Made by a program: the position numbers and the translations under genes. Shown here piece after piece: positions 4,595 to 42,883 of a stretch of DNA of 64,000 nucleotides. Under the pieces are notes generated by a model. The model worked only from the letters and a program-made list of their open reading frames with translations, did not search any database and was not told the origin of the DNA. How positions within the stretch are numbered: position 1 is the first letter of the stretch; each line of letters opens with the position of its first letter. Where the stretch lies: contig OZ035999.1 in NCBI GenBank assembly GCA_964035015.1, positions 17,479,179 through 17,543,178 on the forward strand. The letters run 5' to 3'. This DNA is from Corallium rubrum (lineage: Eukaryota; Cnidaria; Anthozoa; Scleralcyonacea; Coralliidae).

Positions 4595-5742
4595 CTACAC
4601 TCTTTTCAGACAAGCAGCGCAGAAGAAGTTCACTCCGGAGGCTTTAAAAATCTCGAGTGCGATTTTCTCACACCTTTGGTGAAACCATTCCTTGCAGTTC
4701 CCGCACTGTGCCATCAAGTCAGCTTCACTCTTCGGTTTCTCGTACGGCATTCGACAACTGCAAAATAACTCGATGGTGAAGAATTTCCTCCTTGACATTA
4801 CGATATCCCCAGCACCGATCTTCATTTCCGGAAAGGGACTCATCTTTTTCGTCTTCAGACATTCGACGAGATGGGGTCGCATTTTGGCTACGTCAAAACG
4901 CTGCTTCGCGGGGTCTTGGTTAAAAGCCAGCGCAGTCGCGAAAGCGATGGCAAAAACACCGCAGTCAACAGGACTGGTTTGTTGCTGCACCGACTTCAAG
5001 ATCACTTTCATTTCAGAATTTTGGATACACAGAAAGGAGGCGAGTTGTTGTTTAGTGAACTTAGCAACATACCCTTGATTCATGCTGTCGTACATGGCCA
5101 CCGAAGCTGGGTCCTTACTCGCTACAAACGAGATATTTGAAGTGCACACCCAGTGAAGGTTACCGTCGTGTAGGATCTGTATGAAGTCACCGCTGACTGG
5201 TAGGAATGCTTGAACTGCACCGTGGGCGACGTTTTGAAGTCCTTTCAGTTGCGGGAACATTTCGTGTAGAAGGCTTTGAGCCAAATTGATTGAGTCCACA
5301 GTCAACATCTCGTTTCTTTGAACAAGTCTGGCTTCGTGTTTCGGTAGGGTGGACGGAGTCTTCGTATCAGCGATGCCCACGTCGCCATCTTTCTTTTCGT
5401 CCAATTGAGACAGTTCCATGGCCTTGTACAATGTAGACTCCTCTCGGGGTTCGCTCGTTTGACTCGCGTTGACCAGAGCAGGGTCACTTCCGTTCTCCTT
5501 AGATTCCTGGATAACACTCGTAGTCCTCTCAGTGTTCCCCGGTGTCCCTTCCTCGGTACTGGGATTCAGTGAACGGTAATAGTCGATGTTTAAAATCTCC
5601 ATGTGGTTCATCTCTTCCAAGACTGGTTCCTCTATGGTTTCATTGCCTGAGTACGAAGCATTAGCCTGACCACTTGGTGTGCTGTCGACCTTCGCAATTT
5701 TTCGCTGAGGTTCGCCGGCGTCAGGTTCGTCAGTTTGGCATC
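4595..5742 (-). CDS. Gene A last exon: Ulp1/C48-like protease domain and PHD finger
   Basis: This exon enters in phase 1 after the acceptor TTTTGTATAG and runs to TAG at 4597-4595. It encodes a linker, then a cysteine-protease-like fold with HWVC (His), MYDS (Asp), and QQQTSPVDCG (Gln and nucleophile Cys) in the order typical of Ulp1/SENP C48 peptidases. It finishes with a C4HC3 PHD finger (FCSC, CGNCKEWFHQRC, FFCAAC). From about 5100 downward it is about 95% identical in DNA to gene B by eye, much closer than the rest of the gene. Confidence 0.85.
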
Positions 5743-8700
5743 CTATACAAAAGTAGAATTAAAGAATGGAATCTGCTATCTACTCTTGGAGAAGAACTTG
5801 CCTTCGTTCATTCCTGCCTTCCCTCCCTCCCTCCCTCCCTCCCTCCCTCCCTTCCCTCCCTCCCTCCCTCCCTCCCTCCCTCCCATCCTCCCCCCTTCCT
5901 CCTTCCCTACCTTCCTTCCTTCGTTCTCTTCCTTCCTTCCTTCCTTCCTTCCTTCCTTCCTTCCTTCCTTCCCTCCCTCCCTCCCTTCCCTTCCCTCCCT
6001 CCCTCCCTCCCTCCCTCCCTCCCTCCCTCCCTCCCTCCCTCCCTCCCTCCCTCCCTCCATCCCTCCCTCCCTCCCTCCCTCCCTTCCCTGCCTCCCTCAC
6101 TAACCACCCACACGCCCACCTTTTTGCGAACTACTCGATGAACGCTTCGTCTTCTTCGACGGCTTCTCCGGTCCCTTTGGTTTTTCTTCGCTCTTTACAG
6201 GCTTCGACTCGATGACATCCTCCACGATGACCACCTCGTCGTCGACGAAAGCAAGTCTCATGTCGGTGAGCACTTCCTCCAGGGCTGTGTTCAAGCGGTT
6301 GATGACGCCATCGTCGGATAACATGTACGTGAAGTTATTTATATCGTTTAAAAGCTCACGACACAAGCCCGACTTACTCTTCGTACTCAACTTTGGCACC
6401 GTTAACTCTTGGAATTGACTCGAATCAAGCACGCTAATAGTTCCTTGGCTAGTCTCGGGTGATTCCGACGAAGTCGCGTTCACTTCGGGTGCGTTCGGAT
6501 GATCGTCGGATGCGTTCGGATTAACTTCGGGTGCGTTTGGATGATCTTCGGATGCGTTCGGATTAACTTCGGGTGCGTTCGGATTAACTTCGGGTACGTT
6601 CGGATTAACTTCGGGTACGTTCGGATTAACTTCGGGTTTGTTCGGATTTACTTCGGGTGCATTCGGATTCACTTCGCTTAAGTTCGGACTCGCGGTTGGG
6701 TTAAGTGTATTGTCAAGTGTTAAATAGGGCGATGACCGATATGACTCCGGGAATCTCGACCAGTTCCACTCCTTGAAGTCCCGCATGATAGCGACGAAAT
6801 GCTTGCAAGGCAGCATGGTTCGGGACCAGTCCTCGCACTCGCAATGAGGGAACTTCTCGCTGTTTCCAAAATGGAGTTTATATTCGACATCAGAGCGACG
6901 GCAGTTGACTAAAAACTCGCCCTCCTTGTAGCTATGCAAGGTGATGTCATCCGTAGAGATGTCGTAAGATGACGTAATCCTCTCGGTGATGTGGTCGATG
7001 ACCCGACGTGGTCTGTTGCGAAAGAACTCCGGCAGGTTGTTATAGTTAGACGAAGTGCTGTCGAGTTCAGCGTTCTGTTCAAAGTAACTATAGGGGACAA
7101 TAAAAAAAGAAGTCAGAGAGCATTCTTTCAATTCTTACAGAAACAAAATTGTCTTAAAATTGCTCAGCCATAACATATAATAGAAGTTACTAGAGCAAGT
7201 GAAGCGCTGCCTCAAATGGGACAAAAACCTTTAGCCTACTCCACAGGAAAATCTTTCCAGTCTGTGGCCAATGTGACACCCCCCTTTGCCCACTCCACCC
7301 AAGATTGCCCACTCCACCGAAGGTTGCCCACTCCACCCGAGTTTATCCACTCCACCCGAGTTTGCCGACTCCACCCAAGATTGCCCACTGCACCCAAGTT
7401 TTCCCACTCCACTCAAGATTGCCCACTCCACCCAAGATTGCCCACTCCACCCAAGATTGCCCACTCCACCCAAGATTGCCCACTCCACCCAAGTTTGTCC
7501 ACTCCACCCAAGTTTGCCCACTGCACACGAGTTTGCTCACTCCACCCAAGTTTGCCCACTGCACACGAGTTTCGCCACACTCCACCCAAGACTGCCCACT
7601 CCACCCGAGGTTACCCACTACGCGATATGACCCATTTATACGACGTTTTTGAACAATTTGCGGCTTGTGTAAGACACAAACATAAGTTTTTGTACACCTT
7701 TAACAAGTGTTTAGCGTTGTGTAAGTAGCGTCTTACTACTCAAATCAGTAGAGAGGGACATGGGTGATTTTTTTATCGCTTCCGAAGTGTCAGTTTTATT
7801 AACCGCGGATCAATTTCAAAGCAATCACGAGGTGTATTCTTATGTACCACGTGATAAACATCCAATTGTTAACTCGTAAACAAGCTATCACGTGGTACAT
7901 AAGACGACACCTCGTGATTGCTCAACCTCGTACCCAGGGTTTTCTCTCTAGCGAGAGAAAGACCCTGGCAGGAGCTGCTGACGATTTGCTGACGTTGCAC
8001 CGAGCAAAAAATTTAATACGGGAGGGGGGGTTCTTTGTGTGCAATTGTTATCACTTCGGACGTGCCGGCTAATCTAGTTGTTAAAAACTGAAATGTTTCT
8101 ACCTGGTTGTCGATTATCATTGCAAACACTTAATACTGGTCAATAATTACTTATTTAAAAATGGAGACATCAATTGAAGATTACTCATATTGGAGATTTC
8201 ATGCCTAAAACATTGTCTTCGATTTATCGCTTTGGAATATTTAAAAAGCAGGTTAGTTTTCGCACTTTGTTTTTTTTACAGTGGCAGGTCGATATCAAAC
8301 AGTTTGAAGTCTGGGATCTTCATTTGGTACCAAAAAACTTAAGTTATTTACCATTTTTTGCATGCTTGGCCTAACGGAAAAGATTTTCTGACTGAAATAA
8401 TTGATTGAATTGTCTAAAATAATTACTAGGCTACGACTTGTGGTTTTATTTACTTTTTTGTTGTATCATGCAAGGTCGTTCAAAATATCTCTAGGCTAGC
8501 TTGTTGAAGTTTACTGTGAAACAAGATTCTCAGGTAAAAAGTGTTGGCTGTTGAGTATACAGCACAAGATTGTTTACTTTTATATTATCGTTAAAACACA
8601 AGTTCGTTTATATAAGGAAGTTAAGTTTTGTCGAAGAAGTATGCAGAAGAGTTTTTCAGTTCTGTTTTAATAAGCGTTTGTACGCTTCGTTTATAATAAC

Positions 8701-11700
8701 ATTTCTTACAAAATTCAAATATGCTTAAGCCTCAAACGCCAAGATATAGTTACACAGCAAAACTAACTGCTGTTTTGTATAATTTTAATGATATCTGCGA
8801 TTCAAGAAGGGGAGAGCCGGAAACATGAATTAACTAATAAACAGATAGTTTATATTGTGAGTTTCAGGAGTTTTTCATTTTGATGAGTTTCTGTCGATTA
8901 TTGTCGGAAAGGATAGTGGGTTTTACTTTTGTCAAAATCGGTCGCAAAAACATATAAAAACATCAATAATTTAACAAATTAAAAGCTGGCTACCACTCAG
9001 GATATGTTTCATCTGACAGGAACGGATAGAAAAGTTTTTATTGTCTTAAAATCATTAGTTCCGTACGCAAGCTCATAAGACAAAAGAAACTTTCCTATCC
9101 TGTTCCTGCACTGAGAAAAGTTTTCCCGAGTGAAAACCAAAATCTTTTTCAAATGCCGTTGAGGAGTGGAAGTATAAGCTCCATCTTTTAACTCTAGTAA
9201 AAGTGGCTTGGCTTTCAGAAATAACATAATATGTTTTTACATTCAATGAGAAATATTGCGAGTGATAATATTTATAATAAAAGCAGGAAAATTATAACGC
9301 TGACGCCAGCCGACTCGGAACACAATATTATACTTTGCCTCCCCTCTCAGAAAAAAAAAATTGTTACCACCCAGAATCTGGGTGGTGGCGTCAGCAGCTC
9401 CTACCAGGGTCTTTCTCTCGCTAGAGAGAAAACCCTGGGTACGAGGTTGGTGATTGCTTTGAAATTGATCTGCGGTTAATAAAACTGACACTTCGGAAGC
9501 GATAGAAAAATCACCCATGTCTCGCTTTACTGATTTCAGTAGTATCAGCTCTAGTATAACCGGTCTTAATGAAATATATAGTAGCGTAGAAAGAATACTA
9601 ATTACCTGTCTCGTTTGCTCGGGATATAATTTTCTAGCAATAATTTAATCATTTCGCTGAGTGATTTATCCCCAAGATTAAGAAGCTGCTCGTGTTCGAA
9701 ATCTTTCTTCTGACACTCAAATGTGTTGTTTGTCGCAAGAACATTAGTGAAACTCTCCACTTTGAAGAACCAAACCCAACGCTGAAAAATTAACAACGCA
9801 CAAGTAAGAAATAGGCGTTCCTTAAAGTGCCTCTATGGCCTGTGGGATCTTTACACATTTAAATAACTTAGGTTAAAAGAAAATGTTTCCCGAAATTTTT
9901 TCTCAAAAATATTAAATCCCCGCCCATTAACAGCGCTTCAAAGTTGGTACCTCTATAACGGTGACCGTGCATTAGGGACATGGTGCGAGTTTACTGTGTG
10001 ACGTCACGGTCGGAACCGAACTTCTGACTATTTAGTGTGTTTTTGGTATTGCGTCTCTTAAACAAATTTAAGCAATGAATACTTTAGATATATTCATCAA
10101 TATGTTCCAAGATGGTTCGTCTGACTCAGACTCGGCGAAAGAAATTTTGGTGTTCCGACTGTGACGCAAATGTGACGTACATCTATCAATTAGAGCCCAG
10201 GCCCAAGAAAACGGCCTAAGTTTCAAAATGGCGCGACTTGGGCTGATTTGGCCAAATTCGGAGCGCTGTTAATGAGCGAGCATTTAATATTTTTGAGAAA
10301 AAAATTCGGGAAACATTTTCTTTTAACTAAGTTATTTAAATATGTAAAGATCCCACAGGCCATAGAGGCACTTTAAGACATAGACTGCCAAACGTTTGCG
10401 CGTGCGTGAGTTTGCAAAAGTAAACACTGCACGAAATGTGGGAACTAGCCGTGGCAACAACCATGTGAAGACTAAGTAAGACTGGTACAACAACCATGTG
10501 AAGACTAAGTAAGACGTTCAACTATGTGTTCAAAACAAGGGCCATGAAAATTAATATTTAAAATTAAATTAATTGAAAATTAATATTTAAAGTTCTTAAT
10601 AATGCAGCTATCAACAAGTTCAAACTTTAAAATTTCAGTAGTTTTCTTAAAATTTGCAAACTATTTACTTTGAAAACTCATAGATAGATAGATAGATAGA
10701 TAATCTTTATTTAACCACGCTAACACCGTCAGCAGATGCTGGTTTCCACAGTGGGCGTGTTTGAGATACAGGTATTACGCTAAATTACATACAAAATAGA
10801 ATATCTACAAAGATTTACATAAATGTCTGGATTACAAATTTTCAGAACATAGTTAAGTATAATCATGGATAATATAATTAGATAATTTATAAATATAATC
10901 TATTATATGAGGAAAACACAAAGGAAATCAGTACCATGTCCGTGGTTTTATTATGTTATTATTTAATATTAGCCTTGATTTTCTCGGCTTAGATAACGAT
11001 TACTACGCCAATGCAGTAAAGACCTACCTAATTACCAAGTTTTCTGATTGGTTATAAGTAACTAATCATATTGTCGATCATCAATTCGTTCCCATGCTCT
11101 TTACTGATTAGGGTTAGCACAGGGAGCTCATCTTGGCAGCGCGTGGGCACTGTGGCGGACTCGAAAGACGCGCGGGGGACTGTGGCGGGGGGGTTAAAAA
11201 AAAACGGGAAAACGGTTACCGGAAGCGGGGAAAAGGCGGAAAAAAGGGAAAAAACGGGGGAGAATGGGGGGTGGGTGGGGGTGGGAGGTAGAGGAAGAAA
11301 TATAAGGGATGAAACACCAAACGTTCAACATGGAATGTGTTCCGCAAGTAGCCAGGACATCTCGTATCGTCGGGAGCCATCGTTAGAATACTGAAACCTA
11401 CTGAAACTCAGAGTCAGATGAATGTGCAATAAATCAATAATCCTGAGACTTCCCGCTTTATCCGAAAAGCTTATCGTAGGATTTCGTAGTTATCCGAAGT
11501 GTCAACGATGATGTAGTGTCCTAGCTACTTGCGGAACACATCTCCCGAAAATACGATATGTAATGTAGCTGCAAAATCACGGCTAAAAGTTGAGATTTTG
11601 CATCATTTTGATTTATACTTTGATAAATGAATCATTATCACAACTACTTCGCTCAATTGTCTTACAATTTTAATACCTATAGGCGCTTAAAACGATGTTC

Positions 11701-14700
11701 AAAACAAGGAAGAATTCGTGTTTCATCCCTTTATTATTTTCCTAAACACACCACGATCGAGTGTGCCACAGGGTGCCCACGCTCTGCCAAGATGGGCTCC
11801 CTGTGGGGTTAGGGGAAGGTGTTGGGTTAGGTTATGTAAACCAATCAGAAGCCTTCTTAGTATAGGTATATGTGATGACCCCGCCAATGAACTTACCAAA
11901 TGAGTCGTTTTTAAGCTATTCCGAAAAACATTCGTAGAACGTGTTTTATCAGATCTGTAAAGCACTCGCGGCTATCGCCTCATGTTTTAAATCTGACAAA
12001 ACACTGCCGTTCATGTGTTTTAAATACTACTAAATTTCATAGACCATGGTAGTCGAAAATTTCATGTTTTTCAGTACAACTTTTTAGATAAAATTTTTCA
12101 TGATGTCTTACACTGCTAAGTTGTCGCGAGAATATCTCGTGGCTCGTGCACTTAAGTTGGATAGAACTTGCCGCCAATCCCTGTGCGGCTCGATAGCTCA
12201 ACAGGTAGAGCGGCGGACCGAAATCCCGAAGGTGCGAGTTCAAATCCCGCTCGAGTCAGCCGAAATTTTTCGGTTGACTTTAGCAGTGTAAGACATCATG
12301 AAAAAATTTTTAGATAAGCTTCGAACTTTTTGACTAACATAAATTAAAGTTAATATATACCTCTTTAATAGATAACCATGTATTTTCAAACCAGACCCTG
12401 AACACCTTTCCAAAGTTGTCATTCCACAAATCACTTTCCGCCAGCGTGTTCATAACTTCGTCGAATTGTTCTGCAGACGAGGCTTTGGCCAGTCTCTGCA
12501 AGTGGATGATAATAGCTTCCTTGTACGGTATCATACCATTGATAGAATGCGCTAGCCAACGCTCCCACACCTGCTCGCGGTGGAAATCGCTTATAAAAAC
12601 TTTACAGTCTGCAATGGAATGCGGAGAAGAATAATGTATACAGAGTAAATATAATAATACATGGATAATCTTCCCTGTTAAATGTTAGTTCTCCTTTATT
12701 TGTTTTCAAAATTTCCACGCCAAAACTTACCGGTCCGAGAAAAAACGTATTGACCATAGGCTGTTGCGGTATTGAAAAAATACCGATATCGGTTATTGAA
12801 AAAAAAAATACCGATAATATCGATATATCGATATTTTTCCGCGATGGAAATTAACTATATTTTACGCCTAATTTTCACCAGACGCCAGGATATCATAAAA
12901 ATAACGTTTTACAAAAGAAAAAGCACCTTTTTCGAAGTGTGAATCGAGCTTTAATGTAACAAATGATATATTTACAATGATATATATATAATATATTTAC
13001 AAGTTTTCTGCCAGAAACACGAGCATGTTTGCTTGGTCTGGCTTTAGCTGGGCTCTTTGCGAAGTTATAATTTGACCGGCTTTACTGAATAGACTCTCAG
13101 ACGGCGAACTGCTGGCAGGAATTGCCAGATATTTCTGTGCTAGCTGACTAAGTAAAGGAAAGTCGCGAACATGACATTTCCACCAAACAGCGCTTGGCCG
13201 CATTCGAACGTTGATCTTCGCGCGCAAGAATATAAACAAACGAGTCTGGATCGAGATTGTCGATTGAGTCGGCATCTACTGCATCTGTCACAAACGTGTT
13301 CTATTTATTCTAGCGATGACTCTCGCGTGCGAAAAAAATTTCTAAAGACTGCGATGCGTCTATCCTCGACACTGTCGATAGCCCGTGAAATGCCCGGGAA
13401 TTGAAACGCATTCGGTATTCAGGATGAGTCATAGTTTGACAATAGGTGGCGTGATTTGCCGCAAAGAGAGTCCCGAAACTTCCGCAACAGAATGTCTAAT
13501 ACCGATAATATCGTAGATTTCGATATTTTCGGTAAGATTTCGATATTTTCGGTGTATCGATATTTTCAAATTTAAAATACCGAATAACCGATATTTGAAA
13601 AAACCCGATAATTATCGATATATCGATATACCGCAACAGCCTAATTGACCACTCGGTCAATGTCAGGGCGTCAATGCACTGATCTCCATATAAACTGGAT
13701 AGGCCATTCCCTATGGCCAGCAGTCGCGCCAGTCGCCGCCATCTTACGTAGTGGAACATATGACGCATTGCGGCCTTAGAACTTGTTCCCAATCCCAAAG
13801 TTTGACTGGCCTAAGCAATCTTGACGTCAGCACGGTCAGAGTACCCGGGGGTAGGAATATTAAGTACTCCGTGCCGGGGGAGTCGGAAAAGCCGTAAAGC
13901 AAACAACAGATGCCGGTTCGTTTAGTTTTCACTGTTTAACAACAAATACAGTCAAAAGATGGCAAGTACACAACACGAAATATTGTTAAGGCGTTATGAT
14001 TTCTATAAAAGGTACAATTTAAGACTTGGAATTGAATTCTTCGCAGTTTATATTATCGTGAAGTCTCTTCGTTGTCGGCACTGAAGAAAAACAACGAAAT
14101 TTAAATGTTTTATAGCTCAGTAATAGAAACAAATACAAGAAATTAGCGTCTTAAACCTTATTGAGTACTTCTTGTGTCCTTACATTCGTTTAAATTTTCT
14201 TAAAAAACTTTTTTTGTCTGTTTTCAATCTACGAAAGCTTACGAACTTTAGTGGGCGCCATCTTGGGTGAAAACTGCAAATGCCCCATCCAGTTTTATTG
14301 AGATCAATGGGTCCCCGATCGCTCAGCAACCAACAATAAACAATCAGTATTTTGCGCATGGACCGAAACACAAACCCAGCCATATAATAAATACTGTAAT
14401 ACCACGATCGACTCGGATTCTTTTGTTCTTCGAGGCAATGTAGACCTCGTCTTTCCCCCATCGCTCATGCAAGAGGGAAATTTATCCTTTGTCTTCTAAT
14501 TTTCCCGTGCATGTTGATGAGGGAAAATTAGAAGACAAAGAAATCCTTTGTCTGCTTCTAAATTTCCAGCTTGCATATATTTTCCCTCATCAACATGCAC
14601 GGGAAAATTAGATGCAACTTCTCTGACCAACCGTGTAAATTTCCTGTCAGTATGATTCTCAAAGTTTTCCTCGGCGATCATAATATTACAAACTAATAAC

Positions 14701-28000: not shown

Positions 28001-28955
28001 AACTACGCAGCGTAATTACGCACCGTAAGTACGCAGCGTAATTACGCACCGTAAGTACGCACCGTAATTACGCACCGTAACTACGCACCGTAACTACGCA
28101 CCGTAATTACGCACCGTAATTACGCACCGTAATTACGCACCGTAAATACGCACCGTAAATACGCACCGTAATTACGCACCGTAACTACGCATCGTAAATA
28201 CGCACCGTAACTACGCACCGTAATTACGCACCGTAAATACGCACCGTAATTACGCACCGTAAATACGCACCGTAATTACGCACCGTAACTACGCATCGTA
28301 AATACGCACCGTAACTACGCACCGTAATTACGCACCGTAAATACGCACCGTAATTACGCACCGTAACTACGCATCGTAAATACGCACCGTAACTACGCAC
28401 CGTAATTACGCACCGTAATTACGCACCGTAACTACGCACCGTAACTACGCAGCGTAATTACGCACCGTAATTACGCACCGTAAGTACGCACCGTAACTAC
28501 GCAGGCTAATACGCACCGTAAATACGCACGGTAATTACGCACCATAACTACGCACCGTAATTACGCACCGTAAGTACGCACCGTAACTACGCAGGCTAAT
28601 ACGCACCGTAAATACGCACCGTAATTACGCACCATAACTACGCACCGTAATTACGCACCGTAACTACGCACCGTAACTACGCAGCGTAATTACGCACCGT
28701 AATTACGCACCGTAAGTACGCACCGTAATTACGCACCGTAACTACGCACCGTAACTACGCACCGTAATTACGCACCGTAATTACGCACCGTAAGTGCGCA
28801 CCGTAATTACGCACCGTAAATACGCACCGTAAATACGCACCGTAAATACGCACCGTAATTACGCACCGTAAATACGCACCGTAATTACGCACCGTAAATA
28901 CGCACCGTAATTACGCACCGTAAATACGCACCGTAAATACACACCGTAGATACGC

Positions 28956-30840: not shown

Positions 30841-31414
30841 ATGGCGGCAGACCCAGGGGAAATCGCCGATGAGTTTCCCTCAAAACAAACAAACTCTCGT
30901 CTTAATCCTGTTCAGGTCGATGCAAGTCCAATGGAATTTTCTTTAAGTACTGAGAAAAGTTCATTGGGGTCTGAAGAAGTGGCAACAAGGCGAAAGAAGG
31001 GAGGCTTGACCGAATTAGAAGTTTCTGGTGGCCCTTTGAACGATGATGCATCCCAAGATGTTATGGTGCCTATGGAAGTCGATTCGAGTTCTGTAGCTGC
31101 CGAAGGGAATTTAAATGGAGTACCTGTTGATCAGGAATCGTTGGATTTTTCAACAGATTCTGTACCGCAAGATAGTTCAAGTTTAAATGAAGAAAAGTCA
31201 TCACCAACATGTCAGCCTGTGAGTTCTTGTCCAACTCGAGTCGAAGTTACTGAAAACTCGACAAACATTGATTTGAACGAGTCTTCGACAAATGCTGCTT
31301 ATCCAGTGTATGTGAAAAGCCTTCAAGAGGCTGAAGAAGTGTTGCATCGTTTTGAAAATAATACCAAGACTCGGTTTTGCGTGTGGAGATGTCCCAAGGA
31401 CTTTGGTGCTTGCA
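30841..31414 (+). CDS. Gene B exon 1: acidic N-terminus and start of the CaRF-like region
   Basis: ATG lies in AACATGGCG, the same context as gene A. About 150 acidic/serine residues of low complexity precede AYPVYVKSLQEAEEVLHRFE and TRFCVWRCPKDFG, which align with YPAYVRTLQEADEVLHRFEN of gene A. The donor is TGCA/GTAAGT in phase 1. Gene A exon 1 is much shorter (71 codons), so this tail is specific to gene B or has been lost in gene A. Confidence 0.82.
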
Positions 31415-34400
31415 GTAAGTGTAGATGTAGATCTGTATAGTCAGTGAGTCTGCCTCAGACTCACGTTGCCCTATTTGGAAACTCAACTGAACTCAAGTCT
31501 TATATGGAAAATAACTTGATTCGGTGAGCCCAAATGACAGAGGCAAGAGATACATGCAGCTATATTCTGTTACATTGCATCAAACTTGTAAATGTACCAC
31601 ATACATATTTGTAAAGTACCACCACATTCTGTTACATTGCACCAAGCTTGCAAATGTACCACATACATAAAATTATATACAGTACCACTAAAGGTAAATG
31701 TACAGTACCACAAACCATTTTGCTCATAAAGTGATTGGAGAGAGTACAACGACAAGCAACTAAGTTTATTCTCATCTTACCATATCACTGCGCTACCACC
31801 TATCCAGAAAGATTAATTGAAATTAACCTGCTTCCAATTTGTTACTGCACTTGCAAATGTACCACATGCATATATACCATTATATTCTGTTACATTATAT
31901 CATACTTATAAATGTACCACATACATATTTACCAAGCTTGCAAATATACTACATGTACAGTACCATTATATTCTATTCTATTACATTACATCAAACTTGT
32001 AAATGTACCACATCCATATATACAGTACCACTCCATTCTGTTTCTTACACCCCGCCCCCCCACCCCGCCCCGTCGACAACATTTGAAATTTTGGTGGTCT
32101 CAAAATGCTTATTGCAGATTGATTCGGTTGAAGAATGTGGAAACACATATTGTACACCAACAGTACTACAAAGTGCGAAGTGATTAGCGCCTTTCATCAG
32201 ACATGCAATCTGGCTTTGGGGGAATATCGTATTTCACCGAATCACCAGTAACTAATATTGTGCACATTGTAGTGCTGAATTTCATCTAATAATATTGTTT
32301 AAATAAAAAAATTTGCCAAAGATAAAACATACAAAATTATATTTATAAAATATATATTAAAAATACAACATTGGGGTTTTCGTATTGCATATTTGATACT
32401 TTTCGAGTGCCGGGTGGCACTGCTGAGTGCTGGGCACTACCGCCCACCGCCGCCCACCGTGGACAGAACCCTGGTATATTTACAGTACCACTACATTCTG
32501 TTACATTGCACCATGCATGGAAATGTACCAGATGCATATGTACCACTATGTTCTGTTACATTGCTCCAAGCTCGCAAATATACCACATGCATAGATACAT
32601 GTACAACCTGTAAATGTACCACTCTGCACTTGGCAAACATCAATGTTAATGTATGTTAGAATAGACAGCTCAGTCACTTGTTAACAGTGTGAATTTTAAT
32701 TCTGTAGAGATTGACATGAAAGGTAAGAGAATCTATTGGCATGAGTTTGCCATAGAGGATAGATTGACAGTGAGGTCAGATGGCATTCCTTTTATAATGA
32801 TGGGAAGAAAAGTCTATGATTGTCATCATGGTAGAGATAGGAACTCTGCATTGAAACAAAGAGCAAAACGTAAAAGAGAAGAGGTAATGTTTTACTCTCA
32901 TGTTATATTCTACATGTACTATAGTTTCAGAGTTTGATATCACTTTGATGTCATCACAGAATAGGAGAATCAAGAGAAGACCACTACTATTACCAGTGCT
33001 GTGAGTAACTTCATTACAAGTAACTAGTTACATGTAATCGTTACTTTTTTGAGTAACTTTACCGGTAACTAGTTACTTTTTTCAGAAGGTAACTGTAACT
33101 AGTTACAAAAAATAGGAATAAAAAGTAATGATAACTAGTTACATCTGCTGTCTTGAGTGCTGTTACTTTTTGCGATATCCATAATACCCCAACCTCGCCG
33201 AGTCGTCTTTTAACGTCGTATTTAGGCTTGAACTTTCATCACACGCCGCTGCAATGCATTCTGGACAATCTATATGCAAATGCGATATTAATACACATGC
33301 ATACATTTATTCATTCATTCATCGACCGGAGCGACTACACACGTAGTAGCACATCAAGATGTCTTCAGCACAGCCAGTATCAAATCCATGGCTGCGCTTG
33401 GAAATGATGTTCCAGTTCAAATCAGTAGCGGGACAAACTGTAAGGCTAACTTGTTCACTTTGTTCACCGAAAGTTAAAGCCTATCATCATTGTTGAATTT
33501 GCGTAAACACATCCAGCTTAGTTTACATGCTTTCTCGATTTTAATAGCCAAATGAAATAATAGGTGTAACTTTGTAATTATAATTGTAACTAGTTACAAA
33601 ATTTTTAAAGTAACTTTGTAACTGTAACTAGTTACTTTTTTTTCATTGTAACTTGTATCGGTAACTAGTTACTTTTCTGATGATGTAACTGTAACTAGTT
33701 ACAAAAATTATGTAACTATTACAGCACTGACTATTACTACTGATTTATAATGAGATTCTTACAGATCTTCCGGTTCTCCATAGCATACACATACAGGCAT
33801 TTTTTTCCAGGGGGGGTGGTGAACCATTTGCCCAAAAAATTTAAAGTCTTGCAAGTTGCCCAAATTTTTATGAAACAATAAAAAACAAACAATAGTCATG
33901 CGATGCACTAACATAAGAAACATAGAAAAATAACAGAAAATAATCTTACATTTGAATCTAAGGTGAAAATATTTTTACATATGAATTTATCATATAGATC
34001 ACATTACAAGTGGAAACCTTTTAAAAACCCTTTGCCCAAATTTCTCTTGCTGACCAAAAAAATTTGTAGCTGAAATTACTTCTCAATTACAGAGAGGAAA
34101 TTTAGACACACACACACACACTGACCTGAATGTTGACTTTTTGAAATTTCTGTACAGTTTTTTGAAAAATGGAAAATACAAGTTTGAGAGTCCAAAACAC
34201 GTGCATAAACAATTCGGAAAAAGAATAAAACTAAATGTTATGCATAGTTAAACAGTCTGACAATCAAAAAGTTTTACCCAATAAATAGCAACAGTTGTTG
34301 CTATGGCAACAATGACGTTTCAAAATGGCTGCCAATTATCTTTCAAACTAGTTTAATTCGAAAAAAAACCCAATTTTATTTTTTGTACTTTTCTTGAAGT

Positions 34401-37400
34401 ATGAATAATCGATAGGCCGATTTAAAAAAAATTATGTAGATCCAGATTTTTTAAAACTTAACAAACATGATTTTTTTCCAGGGAAACAATTATTCGTTCT
34501 ACAGAATTTTTTTTAAATTGGCCTATTGATTACTCATACTTCAAGAAAAGTTTTAATGAAAAAAAATGGGGATCACCAAAGTGTTTTTCGAATTAAATTA
34601 GTTTGAATGGTAATTGGCAGCCATTTTGAAACGTCATTGTTGCCATAGCAACAACTGTTGCTATTTATTTGGTAACAGTTTTTGATTGTCAGACTTTTTA
34701 ACTATGCATATCATTTAGTTTTGTTCTTTTTTCGAATTATTTATGCACGTGTTTTGAACCCTCAAACTTGTATTATCCATTTTACAAGAAACTGTGTGGA
34801 GCCACCTTAAGCCTTTCATTCCCATCGGTTTTATTTGGGGTTAAAGTGTTAAGAGGTGTACTCCAAGATGACAAAAGGTCTACTACGTTTGAGTAATCTG
34901 GTCTAATTCATAAAAAATAAATGTTGAAATCAACTTTTGTTTACAGAATGATGTAAAGAAAAGGAATGTCACTGCACCTTCGAAAAAAGTGGATTGTCCA
35001 GCAAGGATAGTCTTTTGTGAGATAATTTACTTTCCAGAATACAAGGTATATACTGTATTCCCACACCTCCCAGGCTAATCCAGTGTTAAACACTTAAACC
35101 AACTAGTGAGTATATGTAATAATCTCATCAACAGATCAACTCATTGTTCTTTTTTCTAAAAAGCTCGTCAGTGATACAAAACACCACCGGACAGTGATAG
35201 CGAAGACCATTAAACAACATTTTACAGATGGAAAAGTGAACTTCGATAACATTGAGCAACGCATCTACCTTTCCTTTCCGTCGGATAAAGATCACAAAGG
35301 ACATCCAACTGGAAAGGTACTTTATCTTTACGGCACTGAATGCATGAGAGAGGGGTATCTATACTTGCCGGTGGCTGAATTGCGAAGAACGCAGTCAACG
35401 TGGCTGAGTCGAAGGCGCTCCTGGCATTCACTGTGACACATGTCAGACCAGGAAGCGCTGCTGATATCCGAGTGTTGATTTTACGGAGGGAGGAAAACTA
35501 GAGAAAACACGCCACTCACGCTACCCAAACACGCCACTCACGCTACCCAAAACACTACGCTAACACTTTCACTGGCACTCACACCAACACCAACACTAAC
35601 ACTGACATCAACACAAACACCAACACCAAAATACATGCAAACCGACACGAACACACACCACCATCAACACGAACACCGACATCAACATGAACACCGACAT
35701 CAACACCGACATCAACACGAACACCGACATCAAGGCAAACATCGACATCAATACGAAGACCGACATCAACGCAAACACCGACATCAACACAAACACAAAC
35801 ACAAACGCAAACGCAAACGCAAACGCAAACGCAAACGCAAACGCAAACGCAAACGCAAACGCAAACGCAAACGCAAACACAAACACAAACACAAACACAA
35901 ACACAAACACAAACACAAACACAAACATCAACACAAACACAAACATCAACACAAACACCGACATAAATGACGTTAACACAATCACCGACACCAACACAGT
36001 CATGAACACTAACACAATCACCAACACGAACATCGACACAAACACCGACATCAACACCGACACTAACACAATCACCGACACCAACGTCAACATCAACACA
36101 AACACCGACAACAACACCGACACCAACACAATCACCGACACCGACATCAACACAAATACCGACATCAACACCGACACTAACACAATCACAAACACCAACA
36201 TCAACACAAACACCGACACCAACACCGACACTAACACAATCACCGACACCAACACGAACATCAACACAAACACCGACAACACCGACATCAACACCACATT
36301 AACACTAGTACTTACAACGATACTAAATTCAAAATTAACTTTGCCATTGTTTTCTAATTCCGACTTGACTAGAAAAATCACTGACTCCCCACGTCAATAA
36401 TATCCATCCATTTTCTTTCTTTCCTGTACATTCCACAGGGTGGCAAGTTATCTCAAAGAGTAGACGCGAAAGTATCGAGCAAGATTTCGCAACTTGTGGG
36501 AATTGGCAACACAAACGAAAAAGATGTAAAACAGCATTTGGACGAATACGTCAACAGAGAACTGTTTCCCGGGCGAGCGAAACCATTCCACTCGAACCGG
36601 CGCTACTACCCGAGCAGAAGCGTCATTCGCATTAAGATGTACAACGCATACATCATGAAACGTCTCTCGATTATTGATCTTGAGAACATCGAAGAAGCTG
36701 TGGCGCAATGGAAAAGCAGCAACCCTAACGACAAATTTTATTTTCGACGTCACGCAGACGTGAACGAAGTGTTACTGAACGGAACAATTTCTGGCATCTC
36801 TGTGGAGGATGAGAACGAAGATGATATTCGAATCAGACAGAGTTTTTCCAAACAACAGTTCCTGTTTGTCCATCAGACATCATTCCAAAATCATTTACTA
36901 AAGCGTTACGGAAACCACGTTTGCTTCCTCGATCCTGTGTACAGAACTGCGAAGTACGCCTTGCCGGTATTTTTCCTCACAGTGAAAACAAACGTCGATT
37001 ATCAGGTCGTCGCCACATTTGTCGTCCAAGACGAGACCAGGGATTCCATTAAGGAAGGACTCGAGTTTCTGAAATCGTGGAATCCCGATTGGAAACCCAA
37101 GATCTTCATGGTGGATATTGATTCGGAGGAGATAAGCACGATTGAAGAATGTTTTCCAGGTTTGTTTTTCAAAGTGTTTGGTGTGAGTCGTGGGTTGGGG
37201 GAATAAGCATGTAAGCAAATAATCAACCTACCAAGTTCACTCCGTCCGTCCGTCCGTCATTCCTTTCCTCTTCCCTGTCTGTCTTCCTCCTTTCGTTCCG
37301 TCACTTCCTTCCTTCCTTCCTTCCTTCCTTCCTTCCTTCCTTCCTTCCTTCCTTCCTTCCTTCCTTCCTTCCTTCCTTCCTTCCTTCCTTCCTTCCTTCC

Positions 37401-40400
37401 TTCCTTCCTTCCTTCCTTCCTTCCTTCCTTCCTTCCTTCCTTCCTTCCTTCCTTCCTTCCGTCCTTCCTTCCTTCCTTCCTTCCTTCCTTCCTTCCTTCC
37501 TTTTCCTTCCTTCCTTCCTTCCTTCCTTCCTTCCTTCCTTCCTTCCTTCCTTCCTTCCTTCCTTCCTTCCTTCCTTCCTTCCTTCCCTCTCCTTCCCTCT
37601 TTCTTTGCCTCCTTCTTTGCCTCCTTCCTTTCCTCCTTCCTTTCCTCCTTCCTTTCCTCCTTCCCTCCCTCCTTCCCTCCCTCCCTTCTTCCCTCCCTCC
37701 CTTCCTTCCTTCTTTCTTCCCTCCCTCCCTCCCTCCCTCCCTCCCTCCCTCCCTCCCTCCCTCCCTCCCTTCCTTCCATCCTTCCTTCCTTCCTTCTTTC
37801 CCTCACTCCCTTCTTTCCCTTCTTTTCCCCCATTCTCCCTCCCTCCCTTCTGTCCTTCCTTCTTCCCCTCCCTCCCTTCTTCCTCCATTCCTTGCATCCT
37901 TCCCTACCTCTCTTCTTTCCGTTCCTCCTCCCCCTTCCTTCCTTGCAATATACAGATACATAGCTTATTTGTATATTACTTCATAGATTGTGAGGTGTTG
38001 TTCAGTGATTTCCACCGTGAACAAGCCTGGGAACGCTGGCTATCTCAACCAGCTAATGGCACCCCGCCACACAAGGACGCCATTCTCGTGCACCTGCGCA
38101 GTCTAGCACAAGCTGCTTCGACTGACGAATTCGAGAAAGTTCTCGAGACCCTCAAGCAGAGTGACACGTGGAAGTGCAACTATGGAAAAACGTTTCGAAA
38201 CTGGTTTGAAAACACCTGGTTAAGCGACAAAGAGGTAACTCGACTCCATCCTATTCTTGAGTATAACGAAAATGATGAACGACTGTATTCAGAACAATCG
38301 AATAGGCGAGTTTCAGGGTGTTGCGTGCGCATCGTTTTGCAAAGGAATTGGCGGGCTCCCCACAAAGTAAGCAATGGCAAACATACTTGCTAGTGAGCCA
38401 ACAGCAGCGGAATAACAATGTTTTATATCCAGAAACTGTATCTACACTTTGTTTATTTTAAACAATATGTTTACTTTGATGGAGCTTGCCAGTTTTTTTG
38501 AAAAATGATGCGCGCGCAACACCCTGAAACTCGCCTATTGATATATTGCTGAAACAGAGAACGTAGGAGTCTTCGCTCGAAACGTTAGACTCCTACGTTC
38601 TCTGTTTCGGCAATATATCAGACTTTACTATATTTCGATTGTTCTTTCAACACTGCCTACGCAGCACGCTACTTTTGTGAGTCTCACAAACAAGACATTC
38701 GAAGATAATTACATGAAGTACTCAGCTAAGTGTAAACTGTTCGGAGCAACATTGCGGAAAACCAAGCGATTCGGCGAGGATATCTCTTCGAATTGCTTCT
38801 ATTTCCGCTAAAAATGTTTCGTTTCAAGTACAAGTAATGAAGAGGAAGCATGAAAAGCTTACAATCTTGAATAAGGTATCAGAATATTTTTTTGTAAACA
38901 GAGGTATGAACATTAGTTTCGTACATGCGCAGTGCGAACTGTTATTCACCTTTAACAACTGTCCTGGCTTGTGCAGCAAGAACTGCATAAAAACATTTCA
39001 CTAACTTCAAGCTAAACACCCTATACTACATTAGCGTGTTCTAAGGATTTTTGGTGAAGGAAAATACGAGTGTAGAATATATACATTTTAAGACCAAACC
39101 GGGACCAGTTGCGAAAAATGCAACTACACAGGCCTTCCGGCAGGAATTGAACCCACGACCTTGCGATTCTAGTGCATTGCTCTGACCACTGGGCCACAGA
39201 GGGCGTTGCCGAGAGCTTGATCGCGAGTTCTGTATATATAATAAGGTGGTAATGCCAGGAGAGAATTGGGTATATTATAAGTGATATTGGGCATATTCTA
39301 CACTCGAATTTTCCTTCACTCGGTATAAACATTAGTTTCGTACATGCGCAGTGCGAACTGTTATTCACCTTTAACAACTGTCCTGGCTTGTGCAGCAAGA
39401 ACTGCATAAAAAAAAATTCACTAACTTCAAGCTAAACACCCTATACTACATTAGAAGTAATATTGGGCATTTCACTCGATTACATAGCATGTTCTAGGGA
39501 TTTTAGGTGAAGGAAAATTTGAGTGTAGAATATATACATTCCTTCACCTAAAATCCCTATAACATGCTATGTAATCGAGTGAAATGCCTAATATTACTTC
39601 TAATAAACCCAATTCTCTCCTGGCATTACCACCTTAATGTATACAGAACTCGCGATCAAGCTCTCAGCAACGGCCTCCGTGGCTCAGTGGTCAGAGCATT
39701 GCACTAGAATCGCAAGGTCGTGGGTTCAATTCCTGCCGGAAGGCCTGTGTAGTTGCATTTTTCGCAACTGGTCCCGGTTTGGTCTTAAAATGTATATATT
39801 CTACACTCGAATTTTCCTTCACCTAAAATCCCTAGAACATGCTATACTACATTAGTTTTCTTGTTGACACATTTTCATCACTCTTTCAGCGTTGGGTATG
39901 GTGTTACAAGGTAGACGCCCTGGGGAGTGTTCTCGCGACGAACAACACTTTTGAATCCCAGAGTAAAGGATTTACTCACGAACAACTGGTTGGCCACGGA
40001 GAAACGAAATTGAGTGATCTACTGAAAATATTGATGAACACCATCCTACCAGCAAAACGTGACGCGTAAGTTAAATACTGATCTCAAAATAAAAGCCTGA
40101 TTTCTCCAATCCTAAAAAATCCCTAAATCATCCAAACAAGACTAGAGCTCTGTTCTCCTTTCTTTTTCTTTTCTTCTCTTATGCCACTTTTGTCCTTTCT
40201 CTTCTTTTTCATTTCTTCTCTTATTCCACTTCTCCTTTTTCTTCTTTTCCTTTTTTCTTATTCCACTCTTTTCCTTTCTTTTATTTTCCTTTTTTCTCTT
40301 ATTCCACTTTTTTCCTTTCTTTTATTTTCCTTTTTTCTCTTATTCCACTTTTTCCCTTTCTTTTATTTTCCTTTTTTCTCTTATTCCACTCTTTTCCTTT

Positions 40401-42883
40401 TTATTTTCCTTTTTTCTCTTATTCCACTTTTTTCCTTTTTTCTCTTATTCCACTTTTTTCCTTTCTTTTATTTTCCTTTTTTCTCTTATTCCACTTTTTC
40501 CCTTTCTTTTATTTTCCTTTTTTCTCTTATTCCACTTTTTTCCTTTCTTTTATTTTCCTTTTTTCTCTTATTGCACTTTTTCCTTTCTTTTATTTTCCAT
40601 TTTTCTCTTATTCCACTTTTTTCCTTTCTTTTATTTTCCTTTTTCTTCTCTTATTCCATTTCCCCCTTTTCTTTCTATTCCTTCCCCTTATTTGCCTTTA
40701 AAAAATTTCACTTGGTATGTGTACATAATAATGTGCCTAAATTGACTGCCATGGATCTCATTTCTTATTTCAGTTATTTCGAACTGAATAGCCAATTCTC
40801 CGTTACGTCGACCAAATCCACCAATTTACCTTCGTTTTTCCACAACCGACCACGTGACCTTGCTGATCGGATTGCAGAATGCATGACATCATCACACGAT
40901 ATCACCCCTGACGACATCGTCATGGATGGTACTAGAGTAGGAGAGTTTCTGGTGAAAAATACCGACTCGGATGTTGCACACAAAGTATATTTTGGAAGTG
41001 ACGAGTGTTTACCTTATTGCGAGTGTGTAGACTGGCTGAAAACCATGCTGCCTTGCAAGCATTTTGTCGCCGTCATGCGAGATTTCAAGGAATGGAATTG
41101 GTCGAAGTTTCCGGAATCGTACGCGTCGTCTCCGTATGTAACACTCGACGAGACCGTGAATCCGAGAGCAACCGAAGTACATCCGAGAGTAACCGAAGTG
41201 AATCCGAGAATAACCGAAGTGAGTTCGAGAGTAACCGAAGTGAGTCCGAACACGACCGAAGTTAATCCGAGGGAAACCGAAGCGGATCCGATCGCGACCG
41301 AAGTCAATCCGAGTGTTACCGAAGTGAATCAGAGAGTAACCGAAGTGGATCCAAACGTTAATCAATGGGATACACCAGAGGGCGATGAAAGCAATATGTT
41401 AGCACTAAGTTTGAGTCAAGTGTCCGAGGTGCTGGTACAGAGACCAGGAGAGAAGAGCAAGGCGTCGACTTGCCGTGATGTCTTGAATGAGATCAATAGC
41501 ATAACTTACTCAACTCACGACAGGAAAGCCATTATTTGTTTATATAACACATTGAACGAAGCCCTCACCAAGTTAAAACGGTCCGCTGTGGATGACGATC
41601 TCGTGGTGTCGGATACGATCGAGGCGTATCCGAAACCTGTGAAATCCGAAGACAGGAAGGACGAAAAGACAGCCCGACCCGCGGGCACGCCTGTGAAGCG
41701 CGGGAAACGCCCGAGCGAGTCAGGCGGCCCGGGTTTCCCCGGCGTGGGTATAGCGAACAAGGCTGCGAAACTGGACCACAATGCGGGTCAGACGAACCTT
41801 CCTTCCGCGAGTCAGACGAACCTTCCTTGCGCGGGCAACGAGCTCATCGCGGAACATGTTCTAGAAGAGATGAACCATATGGACATCTTGAATATCGATT
41901 ATTACCGACCGTTGAACTCCACTGCCAATGGAGGGACGCCTGTGAACACGAGTGGTATGCCGGGATCGAACGAGAACGTAAGCTCGATGCTTTTTAATAC
42001 AAGTCAATCGAACGACCCACAAACGGACACTACAGTGTACAAGGCGATGGAGTTTCACTCAGCGTCGCACCTAAGTGAAAAAAGGCACAACGATGTTGCC
42101 GTTACTTATGCAAGCACACCTGGTACTCTATCGAAACACGAGGAAACTCTCGCGTTGAGGAATGAGATGATCACGTGTGAATCCATCAACTTGGCCCAGG
42201 CTCTTCTACGTGAAACATGCCCGCAGCGGAAAGGGTTTCAGAACGTGGCCCGCGGTGCGGTTCAAACATTCGAGGCGGTCAGCGGTGATTTCACCCAGAT
42301 TCTACACGACGGCGACCAGCACTGGGTGTGCACGTCGAGTACTACGTACGGAGCCAGTAAAGATCCAGCTTCGGTGGCTATGTACGACAGCATGAACCAA
42401 GGGTATGTTGCTAAGTTCGTCAAACAACAGCTCGCCTCCTTTCTGTGTATCCAAAATTCTGAAATGAAAGTGATCTTGAAGTCGGTCCAGCAACAAACCA
42501 GTCCTGTCGACTGCGGTGTCTTTGCCATCGCTTTCGCGACTGCGCTGGCTTTCGGCCAAGACCCCGCGAAGCAGCGTTTTGACGTATCCAAAATGCGACC
42601 CCATCTCGTCGAATGTCTGAAGACGAAGAAGATGAGTCCCTTTCCGGAGATGAAGGTTGGCGTTGAAGATATCGTGTTGTCGGAGAGGAAATTCTTCACC
42701 ATCGAGTTATTTTGTAGTTGTCGAATGCCGTACGAGAAACCGAAGAGCGAAGCTGACTTGATGGCGCAGTGCGGGAACTGCAAGGAATGGTTTCACCAAA
42801 GGTGTGAGAAAATCGCGCTCGAGGTTTTTAAAGCGTCCGCCGGAGTGAACTTCTTCTGTAGTTCCTGTTTGAAAAAAGCTTAG
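30841..42883 (+). CDS. Gene B: CaRF-like / MULE transposase / SWIM / Ulp1-C48 / PHD chimeric protein
   Basis: Eight exons: 30841-31414, 32708-32883, 34947-35045, 35164-35316, 36439-37159, 37987-38234, 39890-40065, 40774-42883. All introns are GT-AG, and phases join to 4257 nt (1418 aa) with no stop. The first about 150 residues are acidic, serine-rich and unlike gene A. Residues about 150-490 are CaRF/ALS2CR8-like (DCHHGRDR, DCPARIVF, HSNRRYYP). The MULE core has D499, D560, C576/H584 and E679 in TNNTFES. The SWIM finger is C798, C800, C810, H812. Nine TEVNPRV-type repeats span about 849-911. C48-like catalytic residues are H1232, D1254, Q1290 and C1296. A PHD finger occupies 1363-1414. A role in nuclear DNA binding with SUMO/ubiquitin-like processing is plausible but unproven. 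Confidence 0.87.
31560..32645. repeat. Imperfect minisatellite (ACATTGCACCAAGCTTGCAAATGTACC-like units)
   Basis: A block of roughly 60 bp (TTCTGTTACATTGCACCA, CAAATGTACCACATGCATA) repeats with heavy variation at 31560-32045 and again at 32480-32640. The whole lies in gene B intron 1. The short open frames are not coding. Confidence 0.6.
32994..33729. mobile_element. Complete hAT-type non-autonomous element, 8-bp target duplication
   Basis: Termini CAGTGCTGT and ACAGCACTG are inverted. ACTATTAC flanks both sides (32986-32993 and 33730-33737). The subterminal parts are dense in GTAACTAGTTAC palindromes. It is the same family as the copy at 1-689. No transposase frame is present. It is inserted in gene B intron 2. 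Confidence 0.9.
34144..34812. mobile_element. Fold-back element, GGTGGCTCC family, copy 1
   Basis: Long arms contain GGCAACAATGACGTTTCAAA against TTTGAAACGTCATTGTTGCC, and CAATAGGCC palindromes near the centre. The right end reads GGAGCCACCTTAA; the left end is altered and lacks a clean terminus. It is the same family as 49432-50118. It lies in gene B intron 2. Confidence 0.65.
35540..36310. repeat. Hexanucleotide-based minisatellite (AACACC / ACAAAC / ATCAAC)
   Basis: About 0.75 kb built of CACAAACACCGACATCAACA-type units with an internal pure (GCAAAC)n run at 35816-35876. It lies in gene B intron 4 between 35317 and 36438. Long open frames on both strands (Asn/Thr- and Val/Phe-rich) are artefacts. 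Confidence 0.9.
36439..37159 (+). CDS. Gene B exon 5: CaRF-like C-terminal part and MULE core
   Basis: It opens after acceptor ACATTCCACAG with GGT and closes at TTTTCCAG/GTTTGT in phase 1. In one uninterrupted exon it covers what gene A splits into two (boundary at FVHQTSFQ). It contains HSNRRYYPSRSVIRIKMYNA, CFLDPVYRTAKYALP with D499, and FMVDIDSEE with D560. Confidence 0.87.
37240..37945. repeat. (CCTT)n and (CCCT)n microsatellite in gene B intron 5
   Basis: Nearly pure CCTT at 37296-37590, then CCCT/CCTT mixtures to about 37945. It fills the intron 37160-37986. The mRNA-sense strand is the pyrimidine strand here, opposite to gene A. Long proline/serine and glycine/lysine frames are artefacts. 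Confidence 0.92.
38543..38670. repeat. Copy of the CGAAACGTTAGACTCC dispersed palindrome
   Basis: GCTGAAACAGAGAACGTAGGAGTC and its complement surround CGCTCGAAACGTT, followed by GCAGCACGCTACTTTT. It is in gene B intron 6 and is related to 2283-2470, 17053-17342 and 58806-58925. Confidence 0.55.
39035..39845. mobile_element. Cluster of tRNA-derived inverted elements
   Basis: Two tRNA-like modules of the family at 3048-3120 lie in opposite orientation: about 39126-39205 on the minus strand and 39676-39748 on the plus strand (TGGCTCAGTGGTCAGAGC, GGTTCAATTCCTGCCGGAAG). The flank GAACATGCTAT/ATAGCATGTTC and the GTGTAGAATATATACATT motif recur. A segment of about 110 bp (39325-39440) also repeats 38915-39030. 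All of this lies in gene B intron 6. Confidence 0.6.
40150..40680. repeat. Pyrimidine-rich minisatellite (TTTTCCTTTTTTCTCTTATTCCACT)
   Basis: Tandem units of about 30 bp within gene B intron 7, directly upstream of the long last exon. The open frame continues through it, but the splice acceptor TTATTTCAG at 40773 and the match to gene A show that coding starts at 40774. Confidence 0.85.
40774..42883 (+). CDS. Gene B exon 8: SWIM finger, seven-residue repeats, Ulp1/C48-like domain, PHD finger
   Basis: This single exon covers what gene A divides into two. The SWIM motif YCECVDWLKTMLPCKH is followed by nine 21-bp repeats (41171-41359) encoding TEVxPxx. A lysine-rich linker follows. The protease-like domain shows HWVC, MYDSMNQG and QQQTSPVDCGVFA. 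The PHD finger shows FCSCRMPY, CGNCKEWFHQRC and FFCSSC. It ends KKA then TAG. No catalytic residue is missing, so activity is possible. Confidence 0.88.

Follow-up and report, generated by a model that had tools for sequence, protein, structure and literature searches.

The window analysed here is a 64-kb stretch of the Corallium rubrum genome that belongs to contig C12 of a 474-Mb assembly. It contains two genes, A and B, which lie head-to-head and encode predicted multidomain proteins related to the transposases of Mutator-like elements (MULEs; Table 1). Re-joining of the exons from the window confirmed the description in an earlier note on this DNA of two paralogues whose exons join in phase through GT-AG introns without a stop. 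The joined coding sequences, stop codon included, comprise 3906 nt in A and 4257 nt in B and contain no internal stops. All 16 introns (nine in A and seven in B) begin with GT, end with AG and keep the phase, the splicing of both genes being predicted from the sequence. At the DNA level, A and B resemble each other only in their exons and in short repeats whose locations in the two regions do not correspond, and their introns do not align.

Both proteins display the same order of Pfam domains, that is, ALS2CR8/CaRF, ZSWIM1-3 RNase-H-like, MULE, SWIM, Ulp1 peptidase C48 and PHD. The CaRF model (PF15299) scores 114.9 bits in A and 131.4 bits in B against a cut-off of 28.9. The ZSWIM1-3 RNase-H-like model (PF21056) is matched above its cut-off in the two proteins (E = 5e-13 in A and 5e-14 in B), and the MULE model PF10551 is matched with 25.1 bits in A (E = 2.5e-5) and 23.9 bits in B (E = 5.7e-5), both below the cut-off of 27.6. 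The acidic residues D, D and E of A and B align with those of a transposon protein at a locus on contig C8 (see below), in which PF10551 reaches 47.7 bits, and the CxC...CxH finger, read by eye, aligns with the SWIM finger of the same transposon. By these features, A and B are MULE-type transposases in sequence, with a predicted RNase-H core of the Asp-Asp-Glu (DDE) type and a SWIM finger after the core, and they carry a predicted C48 SUMO protease domain with the catalytic His-Asp-Cys. The Ulp1 domain of B finds a weak match in the PDB to an Ulp1-like SUMO protease (E = 0.051), and its PHD finger matches by sequence the PHD chains of SHL, EBS and PHF2. A PDB sequence search with exon 5 of B gave a best E of 0.74, and NCBIfam returned no match above cut-off for P0001 and P0002. 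AlphaFold modelling of this exon, with the two matching exons of A (three rows), yielded a mean predicted local distance difference test score (pLDDT) of 52.4 and a predicted template modelling score (pTM) of 0.42.

Table 1. Genes, domains, conversion tracts and repeats in the window.
Feature	Position	Strand	Details
Gene A, CaRF-MULE-SWIM-Ulp1-PHD	4595..23059	minus	10 exons, 1301 aa; exon join and Pfam
A exons 1-5	23059-22846, 21776-21598, 19229-19128, 17681-17529, 16618-16172	minus	exon join
A exons 6-10	15158-14888, 12608-12361, 9781-9606, 7087-6120, 5742-4595	minus	exon join
A CaRF/ALS2CR8 domain	16172..21776	minus	aa 95-286, exons 2-5; Pfam E 7e-33
A RNase-H/MULE core	12361..15158	minus	exons 6-7; both D in exon 6, E in exon 8 (9781-9606)
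A SWIM finger CxC...CxH	6784..6861	minus	Pfam E 0.0036, just below curated cut-off
A Ulp1/C48 protease domain	4871..5113	minus	23.8 bits against 20.7; H, D, Q, C present (alignment reading)
A PHD finger (C4HC3)	4610..4759	minus	25.4 bits against 24
Gene B, domains as in A	30841..42883	plus	8 exons, 1418 aa; exon join and Pfam
B exons 1-4	30841-31414, 32708-32883, 34947-35045, 35164-35316	plus	exon join
B exons 5-8	36439-37159, 37987-38234, 39890-40065, 40774-42883	plus	exon join
B CaRF/ALS2CR8 domain	32708..37159	plus	aa 198-401, exons 2-5; Pfam E 6e-38
B RNase-H/MULE core	36865..40065	plus	exons 5-7; both D in exon 5, E in exon 7
B SWIM finger CxC...CxH	41000..41077	plus	Pfam E 0.026, below curated cut-off
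B Ulp1/C48 protease domain	42359..42604	plus	24.0 bits against 20.7; H, D, Q, C present (alignment reading)
B PHD finger (C4HC3)	42716..42868	plus	26.6 bits against 24
Candidate conversion tract 1	4622..5110	minus	A codons 1131-1293 (Ulp1-PHD end); B partner ~42365-42854
Candidate conversion tract 2	14982..15146	minus	A codons 370-424 (part of RNase-H core); B partner ~36901-37065
A-only intron, GGAA-repeat rich	15159..16171	minus	single frame across the point in B and most relatives
A-only intron, GGGA-repeat rich	5743..6119	minus	single frame there in B, the C22 element and L055
Coding 21-bp minisatellite, A linker	6482..6676	minus	9.3 copies; heptapeptide repeats
Coding 21-bp minisatellite, B linker counterpart	41156-41352	plus	9.4 copies
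Inserted repeat in A intron, hAT-like (by-eye reading)	12755..13645	minus	nearest full-length copy 93%, one half-length copy 98%
Inserted repeat in A intron, MITE-like (miniature inverted-repeat transposable element; by-eye reading)	20727..21465	minus	nearest full-length copies 93%, one 647-bp copy 95%
13-bp satellite ACGCACCGTAATT	23663..28948		~407 copies; between the 5' ends of A and B

Across 1277 aligned codons, amino-acid identity between A and B is 60%, and in the CaRF domain it is 43-53% in 60-codon windows. In place of the half-identical N-terminal halves of the earlier description, the pattern is a mosaic that includes two strongly similar tracts, one in the RNase-H core and one in Ulp1-PHD. 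Over the whole alignment, the NG86 estimates of nonsynonymous (dN) and synonymous (dS) substitutions per site are 0.288 and 1.41, so that silent sites are near saturation overall. Among the 737 codons that specify the same amino acid in both genes (Met and Trp excluded), 301 differ silently, and these differences are unevenly spread, with 17/145 in tract 1, 5/49 in tract 2 and 279/543 outside both. None of 200 permutations reached the strength of either tract. The natural reading of these low-dS tracts is gene conversion between the inverted copies, an event beyond what the earlier note had observed.

Inside the tracts, where silent sites are unsaturated, dN/dS is 0.13 for tract 1 (bootstrap 0.05-0.29; dS 0.24) and 0.16 for tract 2 (0.05-0.36). 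Together with the overall dN and dS, these ratios indicate at the codon level that A and B are under purifying selection, as had been proposed for both copies. If conversion took place at the locus, the selection seen inside the tracts that it reset points to constraint since A and B became neighbours. In a neutral simulation on the 1301 codons of A, at 0.12 substitutions per site (half of the tract 1 dS for each gene), a mean of 17 stops arose and 0/100 runs stayed stop-free. Given some 17 expected stops, and a pair that has diverged to a dN of 0.29 and a dS of 1.4, intact frames by chance are excluded.

Two introns are found in A only. They consist largely of tetranucleotide repeats and have no counterpart in B or in the exons of the relatives compared, and they resemble cases of intron gain from GGAA/GGGA repeats, provided that their splicing is confirmed. 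The linker 3' of the SWIM finger, otherwise poorly conserved, carries a 21-bp coding minisatellite in both genes.

Genome searches place A and B apart from all other loci. Exon 5 of B retrieved 75 matches, of which the two pieces of A are 80% and 50% identical; the other loci reach at most 47% across most of the exon, with short pieces up to 64%. The Ulp1-PHD region retrieved 57 matches, with identities of 87% for A, 38% for the next-best locus and up to 54% for short pieces; for large families such match counts are lower bounds. Because neither query has a close match elsewhere, the A/B lineage comprises two adjoining copies, and dispersed near-identical copies were found nowhere in the genome searches beyond these two neighbouring loci. 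The viral contigs, searched with exon 5 of B, contained no related loci. A tree was built from 21 rows, namely 19 of 25 loci plus A and B; the remaining six (C46 CaRF, C73, C12:11.0M, C200, C37:14.7M and C121) were left out for a broken or short match. In this tree the window rows WIN_A and WIN_B are sisters (100/100), separated by 0.60 changes per column, and the nearest rows from outside the window lie at least 1.35 from both. The pair falls on the 14-row side of a 100/100 split, together with an element on C22, and an element with a 771-aa frame and its kin occupy the opposite side. Exon-5-like frames on the A/B side measure 241-266 aa, compared with 273 in B, and that of A is divided by the extra intron.

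The wider family in this genome is clearly mobile. The CaRF and MULE models each produced 98 exon-level matches (150/151 and 150/223 candidates scored, respectively), and several CaRF matches sit directly upstream of MULE matches; PF15299 was matched in 0/14 control genomes. Loci on C39, C82, C8 and at C1:83.2M are 98-99.8% alike across their common parts. The C82 and C8 copies hold CaRF (from model position 42), the MULE core and SWIM in a single 771-aa frame, all three above cut-off in the C8 copy (E = 1e-32, 2e-12 and 7e-6), and a downstream frame contains the Ulp1-like motif QRDGYNCGV, read by eye. This 10-kb element ends in terminal inverted repeats (TIRs) that measure at least 89 bp and, in C8, are 98.9% alike; in both copies whose ends were read, it is flanked by exact 9-bp target-site duplications (TSDs), TTCCCACAT and TGTGTGGAC. 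A second family, at C22:14.65M and C8:43.1M, consists of copies of 6.8 and 7.2 kb that are 98.8% alike. The TIRs, of about 100 bp, are 96% alike in C22 and 92% alike in C8, and both copies have exact 10-bp TSDs, ATTCCACGAC and GTCCTAAAAG. The introns of this family lie at the positions of B introns where checked (both ends of exon 5, the 3' end of exon 6 and the 5' end of exon 8; the 5' boundary of exon 7 was not found), and its last exon spans SWIM and Ulp1 in a frame that shows no PHD.

In a third family, at C1:96.03M, a perfect 59-bp inverted repeat was found, the 5' arm of which begins several kb ahead of the CaRF exons. The fourth, at C1:86.23M and C13:16.69M, has two copies that are 97% alike and inverted repeats of 95 and 126 bp (97%). 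Its C1 copy encodes SWIM, Ulp1 and PHD in a single frame (PHD below cut-off), preceded by exons for CaRF and MULE; an element that was duplicated recently thus shows the same order of five domains as the window genes. Both copies are broken, with exon 5 divided between frames in C1 and the last exon in C13. TSDs were looked for in these last two families and none was found, which gives TIRs in 4/4 families examined (59-126 bp) and exact TSDs in 2/4. The loose chromatin immunoprecipitation motif of CaRF, RRARYGAGGC, which comprises only the positions found important in PMC2877716, was tried as a TIR feature and rejected, as it occurred in 1/4 TIR families (shuffle p = 0.089, not significant). 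Four other loci, L057-L060 (C8:14.87M, C13:4.31M, C28:6.86M and C15:13.35M), have equal or near-equal Ulp1-PHD scores and no nearby CaRF match; the frames of L057 and L058 contain long APSTAAPSQ-type repeats followed by Ulp1 and PHD. They probably represent another mobile family with a similar Ulp1-PHD tail.

On this sequence comparison, a transposase family of this genome has CaRF as its DNA-binding domain, an observation that the earlier note did not contain, and the predicted ancestor of A and B is an intron-bearing MULE with a DNA-binding domain of the CaRF type. The MULE/SWIM origin already suggested for the pair is supported by the Pfam matches and by the TIR-flanked relatives that carry the same transposase. 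The further suggestion of a very long-lived coding element family stands for the wider family, with its TIRs and TSDs; the pair itself has no detected TIR.

Compared with the Mutator/MULE superfamily at large, A and B share the RNase-H DDE core and SWIM, and their relatives in this genome have TIRs of the lengths given above and 9- or 10-bp TSDs; they differ by the CaRF domain and by the lack of detectable ends in the pair. The Mutator group table in PMC6446971 lists domains of the FLYWCH, FAR1, SWIM, C2H2, CCHC and PHD types. PMC2836005 reports Ulp1-bearing Mutator elements from hydra and lancelet, and the legend to one of its figures mentions Ulp1 and PHD domains in the transposases of Ginger1 and Mutator. 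These animal DNA transposases resemble A and B in a C-terminal Ulp1 followed in some by PHD, but the portions of that paper describing them mention no CaRF, and the core of Ginger1 is a Gypsy-type integrase rather than a MULE. The Kaonashi/KIU elements are also MULEs with an Ulp1 domain, but they are non-TIR elements of plants with Ulp1 on a separate element gene, and neither CaRF nor PHD is mentioned in the relevant portions of PMC13317346.

Within the window, no TIR-like inverted repeat was found to link the two flanks of either gene or those of the whole pair. When 100-bp TIRs were planted in the flanks of A, they were recovered in 20/20, 16/20, 14/20 and 4/20 trials when each arm had decayed by 15, 20, 25 and 30%, respectively; the search would thus have revealed a young element but might have missed a very old one. 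An outer inverted match (2278-2383 with 58814-58934; two collinear pieces, best E = 0.003), short and lying around an imperfect palindrome, was rejected as a TIR because three of four other window stretches match the same downstream region far more strongly, also inverted. The earlier note would have recognised an active transposon by near-identical copies in their hundreds, bounded by TIRs and TSDs. No such copies of this pair were found: no other locus exceeds 47% identity across the greater part of exon 5, and no TIR was detected around A or B.

Exact matches to a 37-mer of the 13-bp satellite number 445 genome-wide, overlapping ones included, and an array near C12:4.0M accounts for many of these. 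The satellite was rejected as a special shared regulator of A and B because it is dispersed in the genome, and the suggestion that it confers shared regulation as a pair-specific feature is left unsupported. A 123-bp repeat in an A intron (12188-12310) recurs downstream of B (~44378-44499; 96.7% alike). Directly downstream of B, an 18-bp tandem repeat (43325-43588; 14.7 copies, 98% alike) is open in more than one frame, one of which reads as TTPTSP repeats.

Taken together, the unbroken frames, the constraint that persists and the lack of both ends and further copies point towards a pair of host genes. Both genes combine an intact predicted frame, purifying selection and no detected transposon ends, as expected of domesticated transposases. 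With moderate confidence, we regard A and B as old, immobile, head-to-head and probably domesticated host genes of MULE descent. Several observations weigh against this interpretation. The DDE acids are retained, as a working transposase would need, and several young relatives also have open frames, so that open frames alone are no distinction. Since dS is saturated overall, the older constraint could stem from a mobile life. The absence of TIRs may reflect decay, masking by the satellite (the low-complexity filter was on) or ends beyond the searched stretch, the last being conceivable because of the distant 5' arm at C1:96.03M. The two repeats inserted in A introns give a weak bound on the residence time of the pair; as they are about 7% diverged from the closest full-length copies, with partial copies 95-98% alike, they do not prove long residence. 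Finally, the gene structures depend on splice sites read from the DNA.

The principal alternative, which we consider possible but rather doubtful, is that A and B are undomesticated, long-resident copies from a MULE lineage that is still coding, kept intact through past selection for transposition and through conversion, in which case they may still mobilise short non-autonomous elements. It would fit the intact DDE residues of both genes, the evident mobility of the genome relatives and the existence of a two-copy element with all five domains (C1:86.23M and C13:16.69M, 97% alike), though both its copies are broken, as well as the published Ulp1 domains of Mutator transposases with the legend that shows Ulp1 and PHD (PMC2836005). 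It is opposed by the failure to find a TIR or a close copy of the A/B lineage, and by selection inside conversion-reset tracts, which implies constraint since the genes became neighbours if conversion occurred at the locus. That proviso matters because the low-dS tracts might instead have arisen from silent-site selection, or from recombination between elements before their insertion. Two sequences cannot separate these readings, and no outgroup is closer than 47%; nevertheless, the abrupt change in silent differences at the tracts, equalled in no permutation, and the position of A and B as inverted neighbours, natural partners for conversion, make either of these other origins unlikely. Very improbable is the decay of one or both genes, with A a pseudogene of intact-looking fragments broken by repeat insertions that pass for introns: the repeat composition of the A-only introns, absent from B and from the exons of compared relatives, and the predicted nature of the splicing would allow it, but both introns have GT-AG ends exactly in phase, the flanking exons are open and the tracts 3' of them are constrained.

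If A and B are host genes, their products would be nuclear proteins that the CaRF domain brings to specific DNA sites, which in the transposon relatives are presumably the terminal repeats. The PHD finger would read or hold histone tails, Ulp1 would strip SUMO from nearby proteins, and the RNase-H core may be retained as a scaffold, either catalytic or DNA-binding. Most likely, the proteins would regulate chromatin or transcription, with related CaRF-MULE copies among their possible targets. Local conversion would homogenise part of the RNase-H core and the Ulp1-PHD end and leave the CaRF domain free to diverge. Because CaRF diverges while the tracts stay uniform, A and B may differ in their DNA targets and share an effector end.

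The family also bears on CaRF itself. At the C46 locus, the CaRF domain is spread over three exons (model positions 120-232, 28-123 and 1-36) without a MULE match, and we infer that this is the ordinary CaRF gene of this genome; further CaRF fragments without a MULE match exist. Within 17 kb around the gene (8268500-8285500), the transposase profile matches one exon (E = 1e-16) at profile positions 4-71 only, which correspond to the helical segment preceding the RNase-H core, and no RNase-H-like frame was found (next best E = 0.32). This exon is 39.6% identical to the 771-aa transposase across 106 aa (E = 1e-15) and 27-28% identical to A and B (E = 2e-5 and 1e-6). The first half of the C46 CaRF domain is recognised by Pfam, and its direct comparison with A and B is weak (E = 0.15 and 0.042). 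CaRF and the pair thus have a Pfam domain in common and are clearly alike by direct comparison at the helical end, and they differ in the RNase-H-like frame not found around C46. The CaRF domain has conserved C...C...HxxH residues, which may bind zinc in a fold of the WRKY-GCM1 type. A 335-aa frame near the C46 exons, on the strand opposite CaRF (L022 positions 3-1007), resembles by eye the C-terminal part of a hAT-type transposase. The vertebrate proteins ZSWIM1 and ZSWIM3 are likewise related to the pair through the RNase-H-like model that bears their names; in contrast to A and B, they are not known to have CaRF, Ulp1 or PHD regions.

Canonical CaRF is matched (E = 4e-20) by a profile of the segment that links the CaRF domain to RNase-H. 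Against L001, L007 and L008 (MULE loci without a CaRF match, the last two near-identical), the same profile matched the RNase-H part only, a weak negative in that an upstream exon may be missed. In passages of PMC2877716, CaRF is described as a protein without similarity to any known transcription factor family, with one gene per species, and the DNA-binding domain is said to be followed by another conserved region, whose function is unknown. Our literature searches found no published link between CaRF/ALS2CR8 and transposases, which is not proof of its absence in print; the name CaRF is absent from the main text of a survey of the Mutator group (PMC6446971) and from that of a catalogue of transposon-derived animal transcription factors (PMC10027918). 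The shared domain suggests that the CaRF regulator may be kin to, or derive from, a transposon; the profile is weak evidence on the direction, whether from transposon to CaRF or from CaRF to transposon. On balance, we lean slightly towards viewing A and B as a second, more complete domestication of an element of this CaRF-bearing MULE type.

The pair is a possible case of a near-complete transposase, with DNA binding, DDE core, SUMO protease and histone reader, that has been kept by an animal host. If the CaRF domain is that of young, end-flanked transposons, it becomes possible to test where CaRF came from and by what logic it recognises DNA; if this is true, each CaRF transposon family should bind its own TIR.

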